Assembly (NCBI RefSeq): GCF_003011965.1
Contig: NZ_PXWG01000010.1
Coordinates: forward strand, 1 to 64,000
Direction: 5' to 3'
Length of the DNA: 64,000 nucleotides
Origin: Streptosporangium nondiastaticum
GTDB lineage: Bacteria > Actinomycetota > Actinomycetes > Streptomycetales > Streptomycetaceae
Below, piece by piece: positions 56,018 to 64,000 of this stretch. Both the position numbers and the translations under genes were made by a program. The number at the start of each line of letters is the position of its first letter. Positions within the stretch are counted from its first letter, which is position 1. The notes under the pieces were generated by a model. That model did not search any database, had not been told where the DNA came from, and worked only from the letters and a program-made list of their open reading frames with translations.

Positions 56018-56695
56018 CTACCGGCCCATCCACGCGTACCGGTGCTCCGGACGGCCCGTCTCCCCGTACTTGAGGGTCAGGCTCAGCCGTCCGGACTCCT
56101 CCAGCCGCTTCAGGTAGCGCTGCGCCGTGGAGCGGCTCAGCCCCGACCGGGCGGCGACCTCGTGCGCGGACAGCGGGGACGCGGCGTCCGAGAGCACCCG
56201 GCGTATCAGCTCGGCCGTGGGCGCCGAGTGGCCCTTCGGCAGCGGCGTGCTGGTGGCGGCCGTGCGCAGCGTGCCGAAGATCCGGTCGACCTGGTCCTGC
56301 CCCGCCTCCTGCGCGTCGTCGAGGGTGCGGCGCAGCTGCGCGTACGCCTCCAGCTTCACCCGCAGCCCGGGGAAGGTGAACGGCTTGACGAGGTACTGCA
56401 GGGCCCCGTAGCGCATGGCTGCCTGGACGGTCGCGACGTCGCGCGACGCCGTCACCATGATCACGTCGGTGAGGTCGCCGAGCTGCCGCAGGCGGCGGAC
56501 GAGCCACAGGCCGGTCTCGTCCGGGAGGAAGTGGTCCAGCAGCACCAGGTCGATGCCGCCCTTCTCCAGCACGGCCATGGCCTGAGCCGCGTTGTGGGCC
56601 TTGGCGCCGACGCGGAAGCCGGGGACCCGCGCCACGTACGCGGCGTTGATCTCGGCGACGCGGAAGTCGTCGTCCACGACCAGGACATCGATCAT
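56018..56695 (-). CDS. CitB/DcuR-type response regulator
   Basis: A 225-residue regulator. The receiver domain has DVLVVDDDFRVAEIN, phospho-acceptor Asp54 in LVLLDHFLPD and the signature Lys in YLVKPF. The C-terminal DNA-binding domain (SPLSAHEVAARSGLSRSTAQRYLKRLEESGRL) is the helix-turn-helix typical of regulators of citrate/malate metabolism. ATG 56695 overlaps the kinase stop by 4 nt. It should control the divergent ABC importer or related carboxylate uptake genes. Confidence 0.92.
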   Translation of the reverse strand: MIDVLVVDDDFRVAEINAAYVARVPGFRVGAKAHNAAQAMAVLEKGGIDLVLLDHFLPDETGLWLVRRLRQLGDLTDVIMVTASRDVATVQAAMRYGALQYLVKPFTFPGLRVKLEAYAQLRRTLDDAQEAGQDQVDRIFGTLRTAATSTPLPKGHSAPTAELIRRVLSDAASPLSAHEVAARSGLSRSTAQRYLKRLEESGRLSLTLKYGETGRPEHRYAWMGR

Positions 56696-58320
56696 CGTTC
56701 ACCCCTTCGAGTGAGCTGCTTGGGCTGCCGCGAGCGCAGTGCTTCGGGCAGCTCCACGGTGAACACCGCGCCGCCGCCCTCCCGTTCACCCACCCGCACG
56801 GAGCCCCCGTAGCGCTCGGCCAGCCGCCGTACGAGGGAGAGGCCGAGCCCGCGGCGGCGGTGCGGGGCGGCCTCCTTGGTGGACCAGCCGTCGGTGAAGA
56901 CCAGTTCACGGACCGCGGCCGGCACGCCGGGCCCGTTGTCCGCCACGCGGACGACGAGCGTCTCCCCGACGGCCCGCAGCTCCACCTCCACGAACGGGGG
57001 ACCGGCCGCCTGGTGGGAACCCGCCGCGTCCAGGGCGTTGTCCATGAGGTTGCCGAGCACGGTGACCAGGTCGCGCGGGTCCACGACCCGGTCGGGCAGC
57101 CGGGTCGCCGGGCTCACCCGCAGGGCCACGCCGCGCTCCGCCGCGACCGCGCTCTTGCCGACCAGCAGGGCGCCCACCAGCGGGTCGCGGACCCGCTCGG
57201 TGACCTCCTCGGCCGTCGCCCGGTGCGCGCCGGTGACCTCGGCGACGAAGTCGGCGGCCTCCTCGTGCAGGCCGAGCTCCAGGAGCCCGGCGATGGTGTG
57301 CAGGCGGTTGGCGTGCTCGTGGTCCTGGGCGCGCAGGGCGTCCGTCAGGCCGCGGGTGCCGTCGAGTTCGCGGCGGAGCTGCTCCAGCTCGGTGCGGTCG
57401 CGCAGCGTCGCCACGGTGCCGCCGCCGGCCGTGTCCCTGCGGTTGACGACCAGCACCCGCCCGTCGCGGACGGTCAGCAGGTCGGTGCCCGTCACCCGGC
57501 CGGCCAGCACGTCCGTGGTGCGGCCGGGCGGCAGCACGCCGTCCAGGGGGTGGCCGATGGCGTCCCGGCCGATGCCCAGCAGCCGCGCGGCCGCGTCGTT
57601 GACGAGACGGACGCGGCCGTCCTTGTCGAGGGCGACCACGCCCTCGCGAATGCCGTGCAGCATGGCCTCGCGCTCGTCCAGGAGGGCGGAGATCTCGGTG
57701 AGTTCGATGCCGTGGGTGCGCTTGCGCAGCCGGCGGGAGGCGGCGATCGCGGCGATCGCGCCCACGCCGAGGGCCGCGCCGGCGTACGTGAGGATGCCCG
57801 GCACGGCCCGCAGCAACAGGGCGTGCACGTCGTCGTAGGCGATGCCGACGGAGACGGCGCCGACGACGGCCCCCTCGCCGTCGCGCAGGGGCACCTTGCC
57901 GCGCGCGGAGCGGCCGAGCGTGCCGCTCCCGATGCCCGTCCACTCCCGGCCGCCGAGGACGCTGCCGGGGTCGGTGCTGACGCGCTCCCCGATCCGCTCG
58001 GGGACGGTGTGGGAGTAGCGGATGCCGCGGGTGTCGACGACCACGACGTAACTCGCGCCGGTGGCCAGCCGGATGCGCTCGGCGTCGGCCTGCACCGGCC
58101 CGCCGGGGGAGGGCGGACCGGCCAGCAGGCTCTGCGCGATGCCGGGCTGGGCCGCGGTGGCCCGGGCGATGGTCAGGGCCCGGTGCTCGGCCTGGTCGTC
58201 GAGCTGGGCGGCCAGGGGCGCGAGGAACAGGCCGGCGGCGAGCCCGGTGACCCCGGTGATGATCAGCAGCTGGACGAGCAGCACCTGGGCGAAGACGCGG
58301 CGCGGCCAGCGGGGGCGCAT
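56692..58320 (-). CDS. CitA/DcuS-type sensor histidine kinase
   Basis: A 542-residue kinase with TM1 at 9-34 and TM2 at about 173-194, enclosing an extracellular PAS-like sensor. The sensor keeps YVVVVDTRGIRYSHTVPERIG, the pattern seen in citrate and C4-dicarboxylate sensors, with Arg101 and His104 as plausible ligand contacts. A cytoplasmic PAS, the SpoOB-like H box with His334 in LRAQDHEHANRLHTI, and an HATPase (GNLMDNALDAAG, GPGVPAAVRELVF, GLGLSLVRRLAERYGG) follow. It is translationally coupled to the regulator. The ligand is probably a carboxylate. Confidence 0.92.
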   Translation of the reverse strand: MRPRWPRRVFAQVLLVQLLIITGVTGLAAGLFLAPLAAQLDDQAEHRALTIARATAAQPGIAQSLLAGPPSPGGPVQADAERIRLATGASYVVVVDTRGIRYSHTVPERIGERVSTDPGSVLGGREWTGIGSGTLGRSARGKVPLRDGEGAVVGAVSVGIAYDDVHALLLRAVPGILTYAGAALGVGAIAAIAASRRLRKRTHGIELTEISALLDEREAMLHGIREGVVALDKDGRVRLVNDAAARLLGIGRDAIGHPLDGVLPPGRTTDVLAGRVTGTDLLTVRDGRVLVVNRRDTAGGGTVATLRDRTELEQLRRELDGTRGLTDALRAQDHEHANRLHTIAGLLELGLHEEAADFVAEVTGAHRATAEEVTERVRDPLVGALLVGKSAVAAERGVALRVSPATRLPDRVVDPRDLVTVLGNLMDNALDAAGSHQAAGPPFVEVELRAVGETLVVRVADNGPGVPAAVRELVFTDGWSTKEAAPHRRRGLGLSLVRRLAERYGGSVRVGEREGGGAVFTVELPEALRSRQPKQLTRRGER

Positions 58321-58550
58321 GCGGGTCCCCCTCCTGCCGGTCGTCGTGGTCCTCGTCGCGCTCCGGCGTCATCTTCCGTGGCGCCTTCGTCGCTCATTGT
58401 TGTTCTACCGCGCGCAAAACGAGCAGAACAGGGTTCGTGCACTCAAGCCGCACAGCGCTCACAAGGCTGTCTGTGCGCCACACGCCACATCTAGCCTCCA
58501 GCACCGGCCACCCCCTTGGCCGGAAACCTGCACAGGAGGAGGCGGCAAGC

Positions 58551-59402
58551 ATGATCAGTGGCACCCCGCCGGGCCACGCTCCGGCGATCGAGCTGCGCGG
58601 CGCGAGCAAGGTGTTCCGTACGCCGTCGGGCGCCTCGCACACCGCCGTACGGGATCTCGACCTGACCGTGGGGCAGGGCGAGTTCGTGGCGGTCGTCGGC
58701 CCGACCGGCTGCGGGAAGTCCACCACGCTCACCCTGGTCAGCGGCCTGGAGGAACCGACCGAGGGCGACGTGCTGGTCGGCGGCGAGCAGGTGACCGGAA
58801 TCCGGCCGGAAGTCGGCTTCGTCTTCCAGCAGGACGCCGTCTTCCCCTGGCGGACGGTGCTGTCCAACGTGACCGCCGGGCCGCGCTTCCGCGGCGTGCC
58901 CAGGGCCGAGGCGCGGGAGCGGGCGCGCGACTGGCTCGGCCGGGTGGGGCTCGCGGCCTTCGCCGACCGCTACCCGCACCAGCTCTCCGGCGGCCAGCGC
59001 AAGCGCGTCGCGCTCGCCCAGACCTTCGTGTGCGACCCGGCGATCCTCCTGATGGACGAGCCCTTCTCGGCGCTCGACGTACAGACGCGGGCCCTGATGT
59101 CGGACGAGCTGCTGGAGCTGTGGGGCGGCTCCCACGGCTCCCGGCCCGGCGGACGGGCCGCTTCCGTCATCTTCGTCACCCACGACCTGGAGGAGGCGAT
59201 CGCCCTCGCCGACAAGGTCGTCGTCATGACCGCCGGGCCGGCGACCGTCAAACAGGTCTTCCCCGTGCGGCTGCCGCGCCCGCGCAAGGTCGAATCCATC
59301 CGCCTGGAGCCCGAGTTCGTGGAGATCTACCGCGAGATCTGGTCCTCCCTGGGCGAAGAGGTCCGCATCACCCGTGAGAGGGGTGCCTCCCGTGTCGCTT
59401 GA
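58551..59402 (+). CDS. ABC importer ATPase (NMT1/SsuB type)
   Basis: A 283-residue ATPase with Walker A GPTGCGKST, the Q-loop FVFQQDAVFPWRTV, signature LSGGQRKRVALAQ and Walker B ILLMDEPFSALD. The VFPWRTVLSNV region is typical of nitrate, sulfonate and thiamine-precursor importers. ATG 58551 follows AGGAGGAGG. The permease gene starts inside its 3' end. The operon is divergent from the CitA/CitB-type system and is its likely target. Confidence 0.93.
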   Translation: MISGTPPGHAPAIELRGASKVFRTPSGASHTAVRDLDLTVGQGEFVAVVGPTGCGKSTTLTLVSGLEEPTEGDVLVGGEQVTGIRPEVGFVFQQDAVFPWRTVLSNVTAGPRFRGVPRAEARERARDWLGRVGLAAFADRYPHQLSGGQRKRVALAQTFVCDPAILLMDEPFSALDVQTRALMSDELLELWGGSHGSRPGGRAASVIFVTHDLEEAIALADKVVVMTAGPATVKQVFPVRLPRPRKVESIRLEPEFVEIYREIWSSLGEEVRITRERGASRVA

Positions 59403-60261
59403 GTCCGTCGAATCCGTCGGCGCCCCCGCCGCCCTGGCCCTCGGCCGGACCTCGGCCCGCGCGAAGGCCGCGCGTCAGCGCAGGCTCACCGTGTACGCGG
59501 CGCGCGTGCTGGTCCTCGCCGTCGTGCTGGCCGCGTGGGAGCTGTCGGCCCGCAACGGCGTCATCGATCCGTTCAACTTCTCGATGCCGTCGAAGATCTG
59601 GGACCAGATCGTCCAGTGGACGCTCCACGGCACCGCGCAGGGCTCGCTCGGCGAGCAGATCTGGTACACGCTCTACGAGGCCCTGCTCGGCTGGGCGTTG
59701 GGTGTGACCGGCGGCGTGGTGCTCGGGACCGCGCTCGGCCGGGTGCGCTTCCTGGCCGACGTCTTCGGCCCGTACATCAAGGTCCTCAACGCGCTGCCGA
59801 GGATCGTCCTCGCGCCGATCTTCCTGATCTGGTTCGGGCTGGGTCCCGCCTCCAAGGTCGCTTCGGCGGTCGTCCTGGTCTTCTTCCCCGTGTTCTTCAA
59901 CGCCTTCCAGGGCGCCCGCGAGGTGGACCGCAACCTGGTGGCCAACGCCCGCATCCTGGGCGCGAGCAACCGCCGGGTGACGCTGCAGGTCGTCATCCCC
60001 TCGGCGACGTCCTGGATCTTCACCAGCCTGCACGTGAGCTTCGGCTTCGCGCTCATCGGCGCGATCGTCGGCGAGTACATCGGCGCGACGAAGGGGATCG
60101 GCCTGCTGGTCTCCGCCTCGCAGGGCACGTTCAACACGGCCGGCGTGTACGCGGCCATGGTCATCCTCGCCGTCGTCGCGCTGCTCGCGGAGGGGCTGCT
60201 GACCTTCGCCGAGAAGCGGCTCTTCCGCTGGAAGCCGGGCGGTTCCGGGCCGGGGGAGTGA
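59392..60261 (+). CDS. ABC importer permease (NMT1/SsuC type)
   Basis: A 289-residue inner-membrane permease with six segments and the cytoplasmic loop NARILGASNRRVTLQVVIPSA that contacts the ATPase. GTG 59392 is preferred because GAGAGGGG lies 8 nt upstream; it overlaps the ATPase stop by 11 nt. The topology and the motif FGFALIGAIVGEYIGATKGIGLLV are characteristic of nitrate/sulfonate/bicarbonate-type permeases. It pairs with the ATPase and the binding protein. Confidence 0.92.
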   Translation: MSLESVESVGAPAALALGRTSARAKAARQRRLTVYAARVLVLAVVLAAWELSARNGVIDPFNFSMPSKIWDQIVQWTLHGTAQGSLGEQIWYTLYEALLGWALGVTGGVVLGTALGRVRFLADVFGPYIKVLNALPRIVLAPIFLIWFGLGPASKVASAVVLVFFPVFFNAFQGAREVDRNLVANARILGASNRRVTLQVVIPSATSWIFTSLHVSFGFALIGAIVGEYIGATKGIGLLVSASQGTFNTAGVYAAMVILAVVALLAEGLLTFAEKRLFRWKPGGSGPGE

Positions 60262-60380
60262 CGGCACGCCGCCGCTCCGTCCCGCCCCGCTCGCACCCCC
60301 ACCGCATCCTCACACCACCCCCCAGCACGTCCTGCACGTCCTGTTCGTCCCCCGCGAACCACCGACCGTAAGGAAGAGCG

Positions 60381-61439
60381 ATGCGTACGTTCAGCAAGAC
60401 CGCCGGAGCCCGCGCGGGCGCCGTCGCGGCCGTGATGTGCCTGACCCTGGCCGGGTGTGCCGACGAGTCGTCGACGAACAAGCCGAACCCGGCGCTGGAA
60501 GCGGCGAAGGGCGACATCGTCAAGATCATGGTCGGCGGCCTGGACAAGGTCATCTACCTGCCGGCGGTGCTCACCCAGCGGCTCGGCTACTTCCAGGAGG
60601 AGGGCGTCACCGTCGACCTGCTCACCGAGCCCGCGGGCGTCCAGGCCACCACCGCCCTCGTCTCCGGCGAGGTCCAGGGCGTCGTCGGCTTCTACGACCA
60701 CACGCTCGACCTGCAGGTGAAGGGCAAGCAGGTGGAGTCCGTGGTCCAGCTCGCACAGACGCCGGGGGAGGTCGAGGTCGTCTCGAAGAAGGCCGCGGGC
60801 GAGCTGGCCTCGCCCAAGGACTTCAAGGGGAAGAAGCTCGGCGTCACCGGGCTCGGCTCCTCCACCGACTTCCTGACGAAGTACCTGGCGGTGAAGAACG
60901 GGGTGAAGGTCAGCGACTTCACGCCGGTGGCCGTCGGTGCGGGGCAGACCTTCATCTCCGCGCTCCAGCAGGGTTCCATCGACGGGGGGATGACCACCGA
61001 CCCGACGGTCGCGCAGGTCCTCGCCAAGGACGCCGGCAAGGTGCTCGTCGACATGCGCACCCCCGAGGGGTCGCGGGCGGCGCTCGGCGGCCTCTACCCG
61101 GCGTCCAGCCTGTACATGAACACCGGTTGGGTCAACGACCACAAGGAGGTGGTGCAGAAGCTCGCCAACGCGTTCGTGAAGACCCTCGCGTGGATGTCCG
61201 AGCACACCCCGGAGGAGATCGCGGCCAAGATGCCCGACGACTACGCCAAGGGCGGCAAGGACCTCTACGTCCAGGCGATCAAGAACACCCTGCCGATGTT
61301 CACCAAGGACGGCGTGATGCCCGAGGACGGGCCCCGGACGGTCCACGAAGTGCTCAAGTCCTTCAACCCCGACCTCAAGGGCGCCACGGTGGACCTGCAG
61401 AAGACCTACACCACGGAGTTCGTCAAGAAGGCGGGCTGA
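60381..61439 (+). CDS. ABC importer substrate-binding lipoprotein (NMT1/SsuA type)
   Basis: A 352-residue lipoprotein with signal and lipobox CLTLAGC (Cys near 26). The mature domain is NMT1/THI5-like (KVIYLPAVLTQRLGYFQEEGVTVDL, TTALVSGEVQGVVGFYDH, LGVTGLGSSTDFLTKYLA, FISALQQGSIDGGMTTDP). Family ligands include nitrate, alkanesulfonates, riboflavin precursors and pyrimidines; the ligand here is unknown. TAAGGAAGAG precedes ATG 60381. The 3' end overlaps the convergent Apd1-like gene by 17 bp. It is the last gene of the importer operon. Confidence 0.92.
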   Translation: MRTFSKTAGARAGAVAAVMCLTLAGCADESSTNKPNPALEAAKGDIVKIMVGGLDKVIYLPAVLTQRLGYFQEEGVTVDLLTEPAGVQATTALVSGEVQGVVGFYDHTLDLQVKGKQVESVVQLAQTPGEVEVVSKKAAGELASPKDFKGKKLGVTGLGSSTDFLTKYLAVKNGVKVSDFTPVAVGAGQTFISALQQGSIDGGMTTDPTVAQVLAKDAGKVLVDMRTPEGSRAALGGLYPASSLYMNTGWVNDHKEVVQKLANAFVKTLAWMSEHTPEEIAAKMPDDYAKGGKDLYVQAIKNTLPMFTKDGVMPEDGPRTVHEVLKSFNPDLKGATVDLQKTYTTEFVKKAG

Positions 61440-62492: not shown

Positions 62493-63755
62493 TCAGGGCA
62501 GGGGCTGGGGCGGCGTGGGGCCGGAGTACTCGCCCGAGGGCCGCATCCGCATGGGGCGCTCCCCGTACTCCTCCAGGGCGTGCGCGATCCAGCCGGCCGT
62601 ACGGGCCACCGCGAAGACGGTCTCCCCGGCCTCGGGCGGCATCTGCGCGGAGACGGACAGCACGGCCAGGGCCAGGTCCACGTTGGCGTGCAGGGGCACG
62701 TGCCGGGCCGCCGTCGCCTCGACCTCCCGGGCCGCGGCGAGGGCTCCGGCTGCGGCCGGCACGGCCTCCAGCCGGGCGAAGAGGGCCGTGGCGCGGGGGT
62801 CGGGCCCCTTGTAGAGGCGGTGGCCGAGGCCGGGCACGCGGCGCCCGCCGCGCAGGTGGTCGGCCACGACCGCGCCCGCGCTGCCCCGCTCCAGCACCTC
62901 GGTGAGCATCCGGTGCGCCAGCCCGCTCGCGGCGCCGTGCAGCGGGCTCTCCACGACGCCGAGGCCGGCCGTGACGACCGCGTAGGGGTGGGAGCGGGCC
63001 GAGGCGGCGACCCGCACCGCGAGCGTGGACGCGGCCAGGTCGTGGTCGATGAGCAGCACGAGGGCCGCCTCCAGGGCGCGCAGTGACGCCTCGTCGGGCG
63101 CCTGTGCGGTCAGCCGCGACCACAGCCGGCGGGGGAGCGGCCCGCCGCCGTCCTCCCGGGGCAGCGGCCCGGCGGCCGGGAGGGCGTCGACCAGCGTGGG
63201 GATCAGGCCGCGCGCGGTGCCGAGCACGGCCTGCGGCGAGAGGTCGAAGCGCAGCGGGTCGGCGGCGGCCGCCGCGATCGCGGCCACCCGCAGCCGGTCG
63301 GCGGGCCCGCCGTGCGAGGGCAGGGAGCCCACGGCGCGGAGCGCTGCGATCAGCGCGTCGTGCGGGGCGGTGAACCGCGTGCCGCGCCGCAGCCGGCCCG
63401 TCCACAGCCAGTCCGCGACCTCCTCGTAGGTGTACCGCTCCGCCAGGGCGGTGGCGTCCACTCCCCGGTAGTAGTACCGGTCCTTGTCGATGAGGGTGAT
63501 GCCCGTACGGATCGCCGTCTCGCCGCCGAACGCCGTCTCGCGCCTGCCGCGCCGCAGGAGGGCGTCGACCTCGCGCGCGTCGAAGGTGCTGCCGCGCCCG
63601 CCGGGGCCGCGGCGGCTGCTGAGCTGGCCGCGGCTGACGTACGCGTAGACCGTCTCCGGCTTCACGCCCAGCCGCTCGGCGACCTCGCGCGTGGTCATCC
63701 GCCGGTCTTCCGCCCCGGCGCGCGCCTCGCCGCCGTCCGTTCTGTGGTCCGCCAT
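62493..63755 (-). CDS. Citrate synthase with N-terminal excisionase-like HTH domain
   Basis: A 420-residue protein from ATG 63755. Residues 20-70 (MTTREVAERLGVKPETVYAYVSRGQL, then FDAREVDALLRRG) form a MerR/excisionase-type DNA-binding HTH. The rest is citrate synthase, with active-site His in SPLHGAASGLAHR and VPGLGHRLYKGPDPRA and the conserved Asp in NVDLALAVLS, so the enzyme looks active. A second citrate synthase gene is divergent. The cluster of TTGA-containing inverted repeats between them may be bound by this HTH. Condensation of acetyl-CoA with oxaloacetate or propionyl-CoA is possible; the exact substrate is unknown. Confidence 0.88.
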   Translation of the reverse strand: MADHRTDGGEARAGAEDRRMTTREVAERLGVKPETVYAYVSRGQLSSRRGPGGRGSTFDAREVDALLRRGRRETAFGGETAIRTGITLIDKDRYYYRGVDATALAERYTYEEVADWLWTGRLRRGTRFTAPHDALIAALRAVGSLPSHGGPADRLRVAAIAAAAADPLRFDLSPQAVLGTARGLIPTLVDALPAAGPLPREDGGGPLPRRLWSRLTAQAPDEASLRALEAALVLLIDHDLAASTLAVRVAASARSHPYAVVTAGLGVVESPLHGAASGLAHRMLTEVLERGSAGAVVADHLRGGRRVPGLGHRLYKGPDPRATALFARLEAVPAAAGALAAAREVEATAARHVPLHANVDLALAVLSVSAQMPPEAGETVFAVARTAGWIAHALEEYGERPMRMRPSGEYSGPTPPQPLP

Positions 63756-63762
63756 GGGGCAC

Positions 63763-63768
63763 ACGCTA
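63763..63768 (-). promoter_or_regulatory. Candidate -10 box (TAGCGT) for the HTH-citrate synthase gene
   Basis: On the minus strand TAGCGT ends 7 nt before the ATG at 63755; the -35 position lies inside the palindrome at 63780-63799. Confidence 0.4.
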
Positions 63769-63779
63769 TCCACCCTTCT

Positions 63780-63799
63780 ATATTGATTCGAATCAATAT
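63780..63799. promoter_or_regulatory. AT-rich 20-bp perfect palindrome, candidate operator
   Basis: ATATTGATTCGAATCAATAT is a perfect 20-bp palindrome between the divergent citrate synthase genes, strikingly AT-rich for this genome. Confidence 0.7.
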
Positions 63800-63817
63800 T
63801 GACAAGTATTGAGTCAA
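63799..63817. promoter_or_regulatory. Inverted repeat TTGAC-N9-GTCAA
   Basis: A second dyad that shares half-sites with the palindrome directly upstream. Confidence 0.5.
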
Positions 63818-63831
63818 GCATGGACAGTCGC

Positions 63832-63844
63832 ATCAAGATTTGAT
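63832..63844. promoter_or_regulatory. Inverted repeat ATCAA-N3-TTGAT
   Basis: A third dyad with the same TTGAT half-site, 25 bp before the second citrate synthase start. Confidence 0.5.
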
Positions 63845-63868
63845 CGATCACCTGCTGAGGAGGCAGCC

Positions 63869-64000
63869 ATGCCGATCACCGATGTGCCCCGTGGACTGGC
63901 CGGCGTCGTCGTCACCGACACCGCGCTCGGCGACGTCCGCGGCCGGGAGGGCTTCTACCACTACCGCCAGTACTCGGCCGTCGAACTCGCGCAGACGCGC
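63869..64000 (+). CDS. Second citrate synthase (5' end only)
   Basis: The window ends inside this gene. The 44 visible residues, MPITDVPRGLAGVVVTDTAL then GREGFYHYRQYSAVEL, match the N-terminus of citrate/methylcitrate synthases, where the first strand region and the RG-x-FYHYR stretch are conserved. GAGGAGG lies 5 nt before ATG 63869. It has no HTH domain and is divergent from the HTH-citrate synthase gene; the array of inverted repeats between them suggests joint control. Confidence 0.85.
   Translation, partial: MPITDVPRGLAGVVVTDTALGDVRGREGFYHYRQYSAVELAQTR

Follow-up and report, generated by a model that had tools for sequence, protein, structure and literature searches.

A citrate synthase fused to a winged helix-turn-helix is very probably a metabolic gene switch with an operator conserved across three phyla

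The comparative data indicate that a protein of Streptosporangium nondiastaticum, which joins an N-terminal winged helix-turn-helix (HTH) to a citrate synthase domain (HTH-CS), would act as a one-component transcription factor with a citrate synthase sensor domain. Specifically, HTH-CS is predicted to bind an operator and to control the divergent gene of a plain citrate synthase (CS2), most likely as its repressor, a reading to which we assign a probability of roughly 0.87. As judged from sequence comparison, HTH-CS very probably represents a hitherto unstudied type of metabolic gene switch, because the operator accompanies, or heads the operon of, most of the relatives examined in three phyla. 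The underlying observations are a conserved operator, its co-inheritance and co-absence with HTH-CS, its recurrence at an unlinked gene, a single HTH-CS clade, a near-invariant recognition helix and an intact active site. The DNA under study, here called the window, is a stretch of 64,000 nucleotides (contig NZ_PXWG01000010.1), and its relevant features are collected in Table 1.

In the proposed model, a BldC/MerR-type winged HTH, a flexible linker and a complete citrate synthase domain make up HTH-CS, which would bind a three-half-site operator, TTGAT-N3/4-ATCAA-YR-TTGAC. This operator overlaps the -35 element of the divergent CS2 promoter, and HTH-CS would repress CS2 by covering that element. 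Binding or conversion of a 2-oxo acid and/or an acyl-CoA at the citrate synthase site would alter the hold of HTH-CS on DNA. In many Streptomyces, HTH-CS control would extend to a distant gene for a family III CoA-transferase, and in other bacteria members of the family would act through these half-sites on further carboxylate or CoA genes.

Table 1. Positions of genes, domains, promoter elements and operator elements in the window
Feature	Position	Strand	Remarks
HTH-CS gene, citrate synthase with N-terminal winged HTH, 420 aa	62493..63755	-	
MerR/BldC/Xis-type winged HTH, residues 19-70, recognition helix TVYAYVSRG	63546..63701	-	Pfam, AF2, Foldseek
Citrate synthase domain, residues 78-406	62538..63524	-	
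HTH-CS -10-like box TAGCGT (relatives mostly TACGGT)	63763..63768	-	Box in 70/80 regions
20-bp perfect palindrome of the sequence-only reading, ATATTGATTCGAATCAATAT	63780..63799	.	
Conserved unit of three half-sites, TTGAT-N4-ATCAATATTGAC	63783..63803	.	
Operator half-site TTGAT	63783..63787	.	
Operator half-site ATCAA	63792..63796	.	
Operator half-site TTGAC	63799..63803	.	
Operator core TCAATATTGA (TCAAYRTTGA)	63793..63802	.	Kept in 80/80 regions and across phyla
Dyad TTGAC-N9-GTCAA	63799..63817		
CS2 -35-like TTGACA, overlapping the third half-site	63799..63804	+	TTGACA in 69/80, TTGACG in 6/80 regions
CS2 putative -10 TGGACA (TAGACA in many relatives), 16 nt after TTGACA	63821..63826	+	
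Counterpart, by eye (12/16 bases), of the S. coelicolor MtrA site	63821..63836	.	PMC12323332
Dyad ATCAA-N3-TTGAT	63832..63844		
CS2 ribosome binding site AGGAGG	63858..63863	+	
CS2 gene, plain citrate synthase, 382 aa, continuing beyond the window end (L085:8870-10015)	63869..64000	+	

The two divergent genes are separated by 113 bp with 47% GC, in a window of 73.3% GC. An earlier reading made from the sequence alone (the sequence-only reading) had described an operator array in this gap, consisting of a 20-bp perfect palindrome and two further dyads, and the array is real: the palindrome is exact, both dyads are present, and the gap length and the GC-rich genome are as described. A chance origin of the palindrome was ruled out by shuffling and by a genome-wide pattern count, as 4 of 20,000 sequences obtained by mononucleotide shuffling of the gap contained a perfect palindrome with arms of at least 10 bp, and ATTGATT-N0-3-AATCAAT occurs at a single place in the organism's own 8.03-Mb genome, namely this array, against 0.00014 occurrences expected from composition. 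The pattern TCAAYRTTGA-N2-8-TCAA is likewise confined to a single place, and the dyad was rejected as a widespread genomic element on these grounds. A hairpin or attenuator was also discarded, given an unremarkable DNA strand stability (z -1.5) and a position upstream of both genes.

The sequence-only reading had proposed a comparison with other Streptomyces, and this comparison redefines the operator. Among the best 80 of 217 HTH-CS relatives, which are Streptomyces plus one Actinacidiphila, 79 carry CS2 divergently within 900 bp; in one locus (L060), an insertion has widened the gap to 2.4 kb and the array stays with CS2. In the 80 regions read (79 relatives and the window), the dyad core TCAAYRTTGA is kept throughout, the next half-site is found by the pattern used in 75, and the third half-site continues into TTGACA or TTGACG in 75. 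The conserved unit is the set of three half-sites, made up of the core and one more TTGAT half-site; the 20-bp palindrome is not itself the conserved unit, most relatives carrying a 15-bp version with one base fewer in the middle, and ATCAA-N3-TTGAT is not conserved as a dyad (by eye).

Across 150 Streptomyces genomes, HTH-CS occurs in 97, CS2 in 94 and a 62-bp footprint of the region (model R1) in 93. This footprint is present in 93 of the 97 genomes with HTH-CS vs none of the 53 without it, counts that are not independent because the genomes are related. The four genomes with HTH-CS and no footprint, none of which has a CS2 match, are G102, where HTH-CS is split over two contigs, and G013, G107 and G110, where HTH-CS is intact and has no array at its own gene. 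Conversely, G027 is the sole genome with CS2 and without HTH-CS, and it keeps the GGACAGTC block (as CATGGACAGTC) and has neither the dyad nor TTGACA. The exact dyad, searched anywhere in the genome, is found in 50 of 97 genomes with HTH-CS vs 0 of 53 without, and the operator pattern in 88 of 97 (9 lacking the exact pattern) vs 6 of 53. All six of the latter matches are one other element, TCAACGTTGAGATTATCAA, which looks like a different conserved element; in G114 (L313) it lies, by eye, at the start of an MFS-like transporter open reading frame. Rearrangements were also seen in this set. One locus (L183, G032:C80:7500-13500) has two footprints 1.4 kb apart. One copy accompanies an inverted CS2, and beside HTH-CS the remnant of a CS2 promoter and start has decayed, with TTAACA in place of TTGACA. 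G012 and G095 show an inversion-like arrangement, in which the CS2 match begins within the gene (at residues 83 and 30, respectively) and is distant from HTH-CS, which keeps the footprint at its side.

A second, unlinked site ties the operator to HTH-CS independently of CS2. Among the 50 genomes that carry the exact dyad, 30 loci were read, of which 25 match HTH-CS and five do not. Each of these five dyads directly precedes a gene for a family III CoA-transferase whose N-terminal extension is long (open reading frames by eye, Pfam for one). The CoA-transferase has a match in 95 genomes, and 67 of its promoters were read (30 search loci and 37 fetched, with 28 left out). A dyad of at least 12 of 14 positions is present in 21 of 42 genomes with HTH-CS vs 0 of 25 without (Fisher 5e-6), where the best score is 10/14; for G140 and G141 this count used a misplaced window, and their scores in the tree set are 12 and 11. 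The other 21 of the 42 have no good dyad at this gene, and they include the window's own organism, whose CoA-transferase homolog is 66% identical. In a tree of 30 CoA-transferases, the absence of HTH-CS requires 6 changes, 3 of them forced by well-supported branches, and is not clustered (101 of 500 shuffles are as low); all eight tips without HTH-CS lack the dyad, with scores of at most 9. The dyad is present at the CoA-transferase of G013, G107 and G110, which have HTH-CS and no CS2 match, and this rules out that the operator is tied to CS2 alone.

The operator also follows HTH-CS beyond Streptomyces. In other Actinomycetota families, HTH-CS is 36-51% identical, and many of these distant loci also have a divergent plain citrate synthase. 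Of 19 such loci, 18 were counted (L273, at a contig edge, was omitted): TCAAYRTTGA lies upstream of HTH-CS in 14 and the third half-site in 13, against a mean of 0.006 for the core in shuffled upstream regions. The third half-site is missing in L266, which does have the core; a single base separates L267, L270 and L275 from a match to the core, and L272 has no operator upstream of HTH-CS. Furthermore, 26 plasmid loci, chosen from the listed matches for varied genera and annotation rather than for the operator, span three phyla: Actinomycetota, alpha-, beta- and gammaproteobacteria, and Deinococcus (two of the loci, from B. cepacia, are nearly the same). TCAA-NN-TTGA-N2-9-TCAA stands at HTH-CS in 22 of the 26, 20 exactly and 2 with one mismatch, compared with 0.006 exact matches by shuffling and 1 in 767 control windows; this sole control match is probably the operon-head copy at L288:93, which sits in a control window. 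In the four exceptions, HTH-CS ends a Burkholderia-type SDR-MFS-VOC-HTH-CS operon, for which an operator at the operon head was predicted. All three heads examined of these four (L288, L311 and L312) have at least two copies between the D-glycerate dehydrogenase and SDR genes, one exact and the others with a single mismatch. The spacing of the third half-site differs by lineage, with TTGA-N5-TCAA in 70 regions of the Streptomyces set and N9 in 14 plasmid loci.

The gene that faces HTH-CS changes along the way. The divergent partner is a citrate synthase in Agrobacterium fabrum C58, A. vitis, Ensifer, Pararhizobium and Chelatococcus and, by similarity, in Embleya and Niveispirillum; it is a CoA-transferase, 38-43% identical to the Streptomyces target, in two Azospirillum, Ewingella and Comamonas antarctica. 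Other partners are 2-hydroxyacid dehydrogenase or transporter genes, pyruvate carboxyltransferase (two Deinococcus) and DUF2332 (Roseomonas and Pseudoroseomonas). The CoA-transferase gene thus adjoins HTH-CS in three genera and, in Streptomyces, bears the operator at an unlinked position, which provides independent support for the proposed link. By eye, partner types are scattered over the HTH-CS tree and the operator is constant. In Pseudomonadota and Deinococcus the operator abuts or overlaps the HTH-CS start, and in L293, L298 and L306 it overlaps the annotated 5' end of the gene, so that the annotated starts may be too early.

Taken together, co-occurrence, co-loss, unlinked recurrence and persistence across three phyla with changing neighbours strongly support HTH-CS as the candidate binder of the array, as the sequence-only reading had supposed. 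That reading had further suggested that HTH-CS might couple metabolic state to the output of both genes and regulate itself. Where the operator abuts its start, as in many Pseudomonadota and Deinococcus, such autocontrol is likely; in Streptomyces it is doubtful, since no array lies at the intact HTH-CS genes of G013, G107 and G110 and the array stays with CS2 in L060.

The -10-like box of HTH-CS lies 7 nt before its ATG, suggesting a leaderless mRNA, and among the 70 of 80 regions with this box its distance from the operator core varies between 8 and 66 nt. Coverage of the left gene's -35 position by the palindrome, as originally claimed, is therefore not a conserved feature. On the other side, the third half-site runs into the -35-like TTGACA of CS2, and GACAGTC follows the core at 20 nt in 68 of 78 regions. 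The fixed spacing to CS2 promoter elements and the variable spacing to the HTH-CS box suggest that the Streptomyces operator is built into the CS2 promoter. This overlap and constant spacing would also be compatible with a conserved block that is simply the CS2 promoter (-35, AT-rich element and -10) with no dedicated binding protein. We regard this as highly improbable, as the half-sites occur at CoA-transferase promoters without adjacent TTGACA and at other positions relative to genes in other phyla, and as the CS2 region of G027, which has no HTH-CS, keeps GGACAGTC without any dyad.

Studies in S. coelicolor bear on the same gene pair. There, citA3 and citA4 form a divergent citrate synthase pair (PMC12323332), and SCO5830 (sucrase/ferredoxin-like) and SCO5829 (kinase) lie beside SCO5831 (PMC9739823). 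In the window, a Suc_Fer-like gene adjoins HTH-CS and a sensor kinase gene lies further left, with ABC-transporter genes in between. Because of the same neighbour genes and the divergent pair, HTH-CS is probably the counterpart of SCO5831 (citA3) and CS2 that of SCO5832 (citA4), and the predicted HTH-CS target stretch in the citA3-citA4 region would be TTGAT-N3/4-ATCAAYRTTGAC. SCO5831 is reported to be more abundant under phosphate sufficiency (PMC9739823, PMC8981147) and stands at -1.238 in a table of an SCO3201 over-expression study (PMC7324645). As a separate observation, the sensor kinase of the window (sCache_3_2, PAS and HATPase domains) adjoins an ABC transporter with an NMT1-like substrate-binding protein (56692-61439).

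In the citA3-citA4 region, MtrA bound a probe for the site TTGACTTAACTGTCCA in an EMSA, and both genes showed a late rise in an mtrA mutant (PMC12323332). GACAGTC and the bases after it match this site by eye, and the more downstream 'operators' of the sequence-only reading partly overlap the published site (PMC12323332). MtrA binding to part of the region and the rise of both genes in the mutant indicate that HTH-CS is not the only regulator. A different, unlinked regulator might then bind the dyad, with HTH-CS merely one of its targets, and MtrA on the neighbouring block offers one precedent and the control of citrate synthase genes by GlnR in Saccharopolyspora (PMC10704036) another. The lack of a fixed distance between operator and HTH-CS in Streptomyces is compatible with this scenario, and a regulator strictly co-inherited with HTH-CS would fit it as well. 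We nevertheless consider it unlikely: the MtrA consensus, GTAACC-N5-GTAACC (PMC12323332), is unlike TCAAYRTTGA, the operator goes with HTH-CS across three phyla while the neighbours change, and it is absent where HTH-CS is absent, the CoA-transferase promoter included.

At the protein level, the left gene encodes a citrate synthase with an N-terminal HTH, as the sequence-only reading had it. HTH-CS scores above the Pfam cut-offs for MerR, MerR_1 and HTH_17 at residues 19-70 and for Citrate_synt at 78-406, and below the cut-offs of all citrate synthase models among the NCBIfam matches listed; CS2 is above the PRK12350 cut-off. According to the AlphaFold model, residues 71-83 form a low-confidence linker between a winged HTH and a citrate synthase fold. 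With the HTH alone, the nearest Foldseek matches are the BldC-DNA complex 6ama, Xis, RacA and SoxR, with probabilities near 1 and E values of 0.0025 and weaker (none at E <= 0.001), and a PDB sequence search with the HTH fragment returned no match at E 0.01. The citrate synthase domain holds His273, His312, Asp360, Arg321 and Arg385, with Arg405 near its end, residues that we take to correspond to the catalytic residues of pig citrate synthase and whose roles we assign on that assumption. In a comparison of 124 HTH-CS proteins (L270 and L273 left out), no variation is seen in the two catalytic His, the Asp or two of the substrate Arg, and 123 proteins keep the third Arg (Arg405), in agreement with the earlier statement that the catalytic residues are intact. 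By domain, fold and catalytic residues HTH-CS is a citrate synthase, and it may have citrate synthase activity.

An HTH-CS that is mainly a metabolic enzyme, its HTH a decayed relic, would account for this invariant active site. This is extremely improbable, given that the operator is conserved across phyla and that the recognition helix, T-x-YAYVSRG, is near-invariant and among the most conserved stretches of the HTH (Y37, S41, R42 and G43 in 124 of 124, T35 in 123). HTH-CS as a DNA-binding regulator also fits a tree in which 40 HTH-CS domains fall on one side of a single branch vs 20 plain citrate synthases (support 100/100). The nearest named relative among the matches listed is from S. roseoverticillatus (98% identical), and a scan of viral contigs confirmed no relatives. 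CS2 itself has Glu at the catalytic Asp position: a search pattern (NVE) matched 72 such copies, vs Asp in all 124 HTH-CS proteins. The same Glu is seen in five Hyphomicrobiales partner citrate synthases (NVE) and, in an alignment, in B. subtilis CS1 (2c6x). Single in-frame TGA codons in CS2 of G031 and G009 possibly reflect a pseudogene or a sequence error.

Transcription factors with an enzyme fold are a known kind, including MocR/PdxR (aminotransferase fold), ROK (sugar-kinase fold), BirA and PutA. HTH-CS resembles these in the fusion of a DNA-binding domain to a metabolic-enzyme fold, usually beside the controlled genes, and differs in its citrate synthase fold, in its BldC/MerR/Xis-type HTH and in one operator type across phyla with differing target genes. 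As in MocR-like regulators, an HTH and an enzyme fold are combined with what conservation suggests is a cognate operator at the target genes; compared with a trigger enzyme such as PutA, the residues are intact and the operator is conserved, and HTH-CS may likewise combine catalysis with DNA binding. BldC is a small protein that stands alone and binds head-to-tail direct repeats, and MerR proteins have a long C-terminal dimerisation helix followed by an effector domain. HTH-CS shares the winged HTH fold with both, according to Pfam, AF2 and Foldseek (E 0.0025 at best), but unlike BldC it is a 420-aa fusion with inverted half-sites, and unlike in MerR a citrate synthase domain replaces the coiled coil, the model placing the low-confidence linker and then the citrate synthase fold where the long helix would be. 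MerR operators lie between the -35 and -10 of promoters with 19-20-bp spacing; in the window, where the promoters are putative, the operator lies at and upstream of the -35.

A related case is Caulobacter CitA, a trigger enzyme that is, like HTH-CS, a citrate synthase with a regulatory role. It differs in being described as moonlighting independently of catalysis, and the word 'helix' does not occur in the main text of the paper (PMC7083601). Its paralog CitC, numbered next to the functional CitB, fails to complement E. coli gltA (PMC7083601) and may be a candidate HTH-CS. For the S. coelicolor citA3-citA4 (SCO5831-SCO5832) pair and region, PMC12323332 reports a predicted and bound MtrA site and terms both genes putative citrate synthases; its section 10 names just the MtrA site in the region. 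A literature search, covering titles and abstract openings among the matches listed and few subscription papers, found no citrate synthase with an HTH described as a regulator. As such, the citrate synthase version of an enzyme-fold transcription factor, with its cross-phylum operator, appears to be new. More tentatively, HTH-CS might form a single-origin, cross-phylum class whose DNA affinity is set by catalysis on a 2-oxo acid plus an acyl-CoA at a working citrate synthase site, rather than by their mere binding, with one operator recruited to genes for citrate synthase, CoA-transferase, 2-hydroxyacid enzymes and pyruvate carboxyltransferase.

The findings suggest that transcription factors are probably encoded by genes of Streptomyces, Agrobacterium, Azospirillum, Burkholderia, Deinococcus and others that carry the label 'citrate synthase' or 'citrate synthase family protein', and such a reannotation would alter metabolic models that count these genes as enzymes. 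The conserved operator, furthermore, predicts regulons straight from sequence. With an intact citrate synthase site as its sensor, a single protein would link entry into the TCA cycle to transcription, and it would lend itself directly to use as a biosensor of 2-oxo acids or CoA esters.
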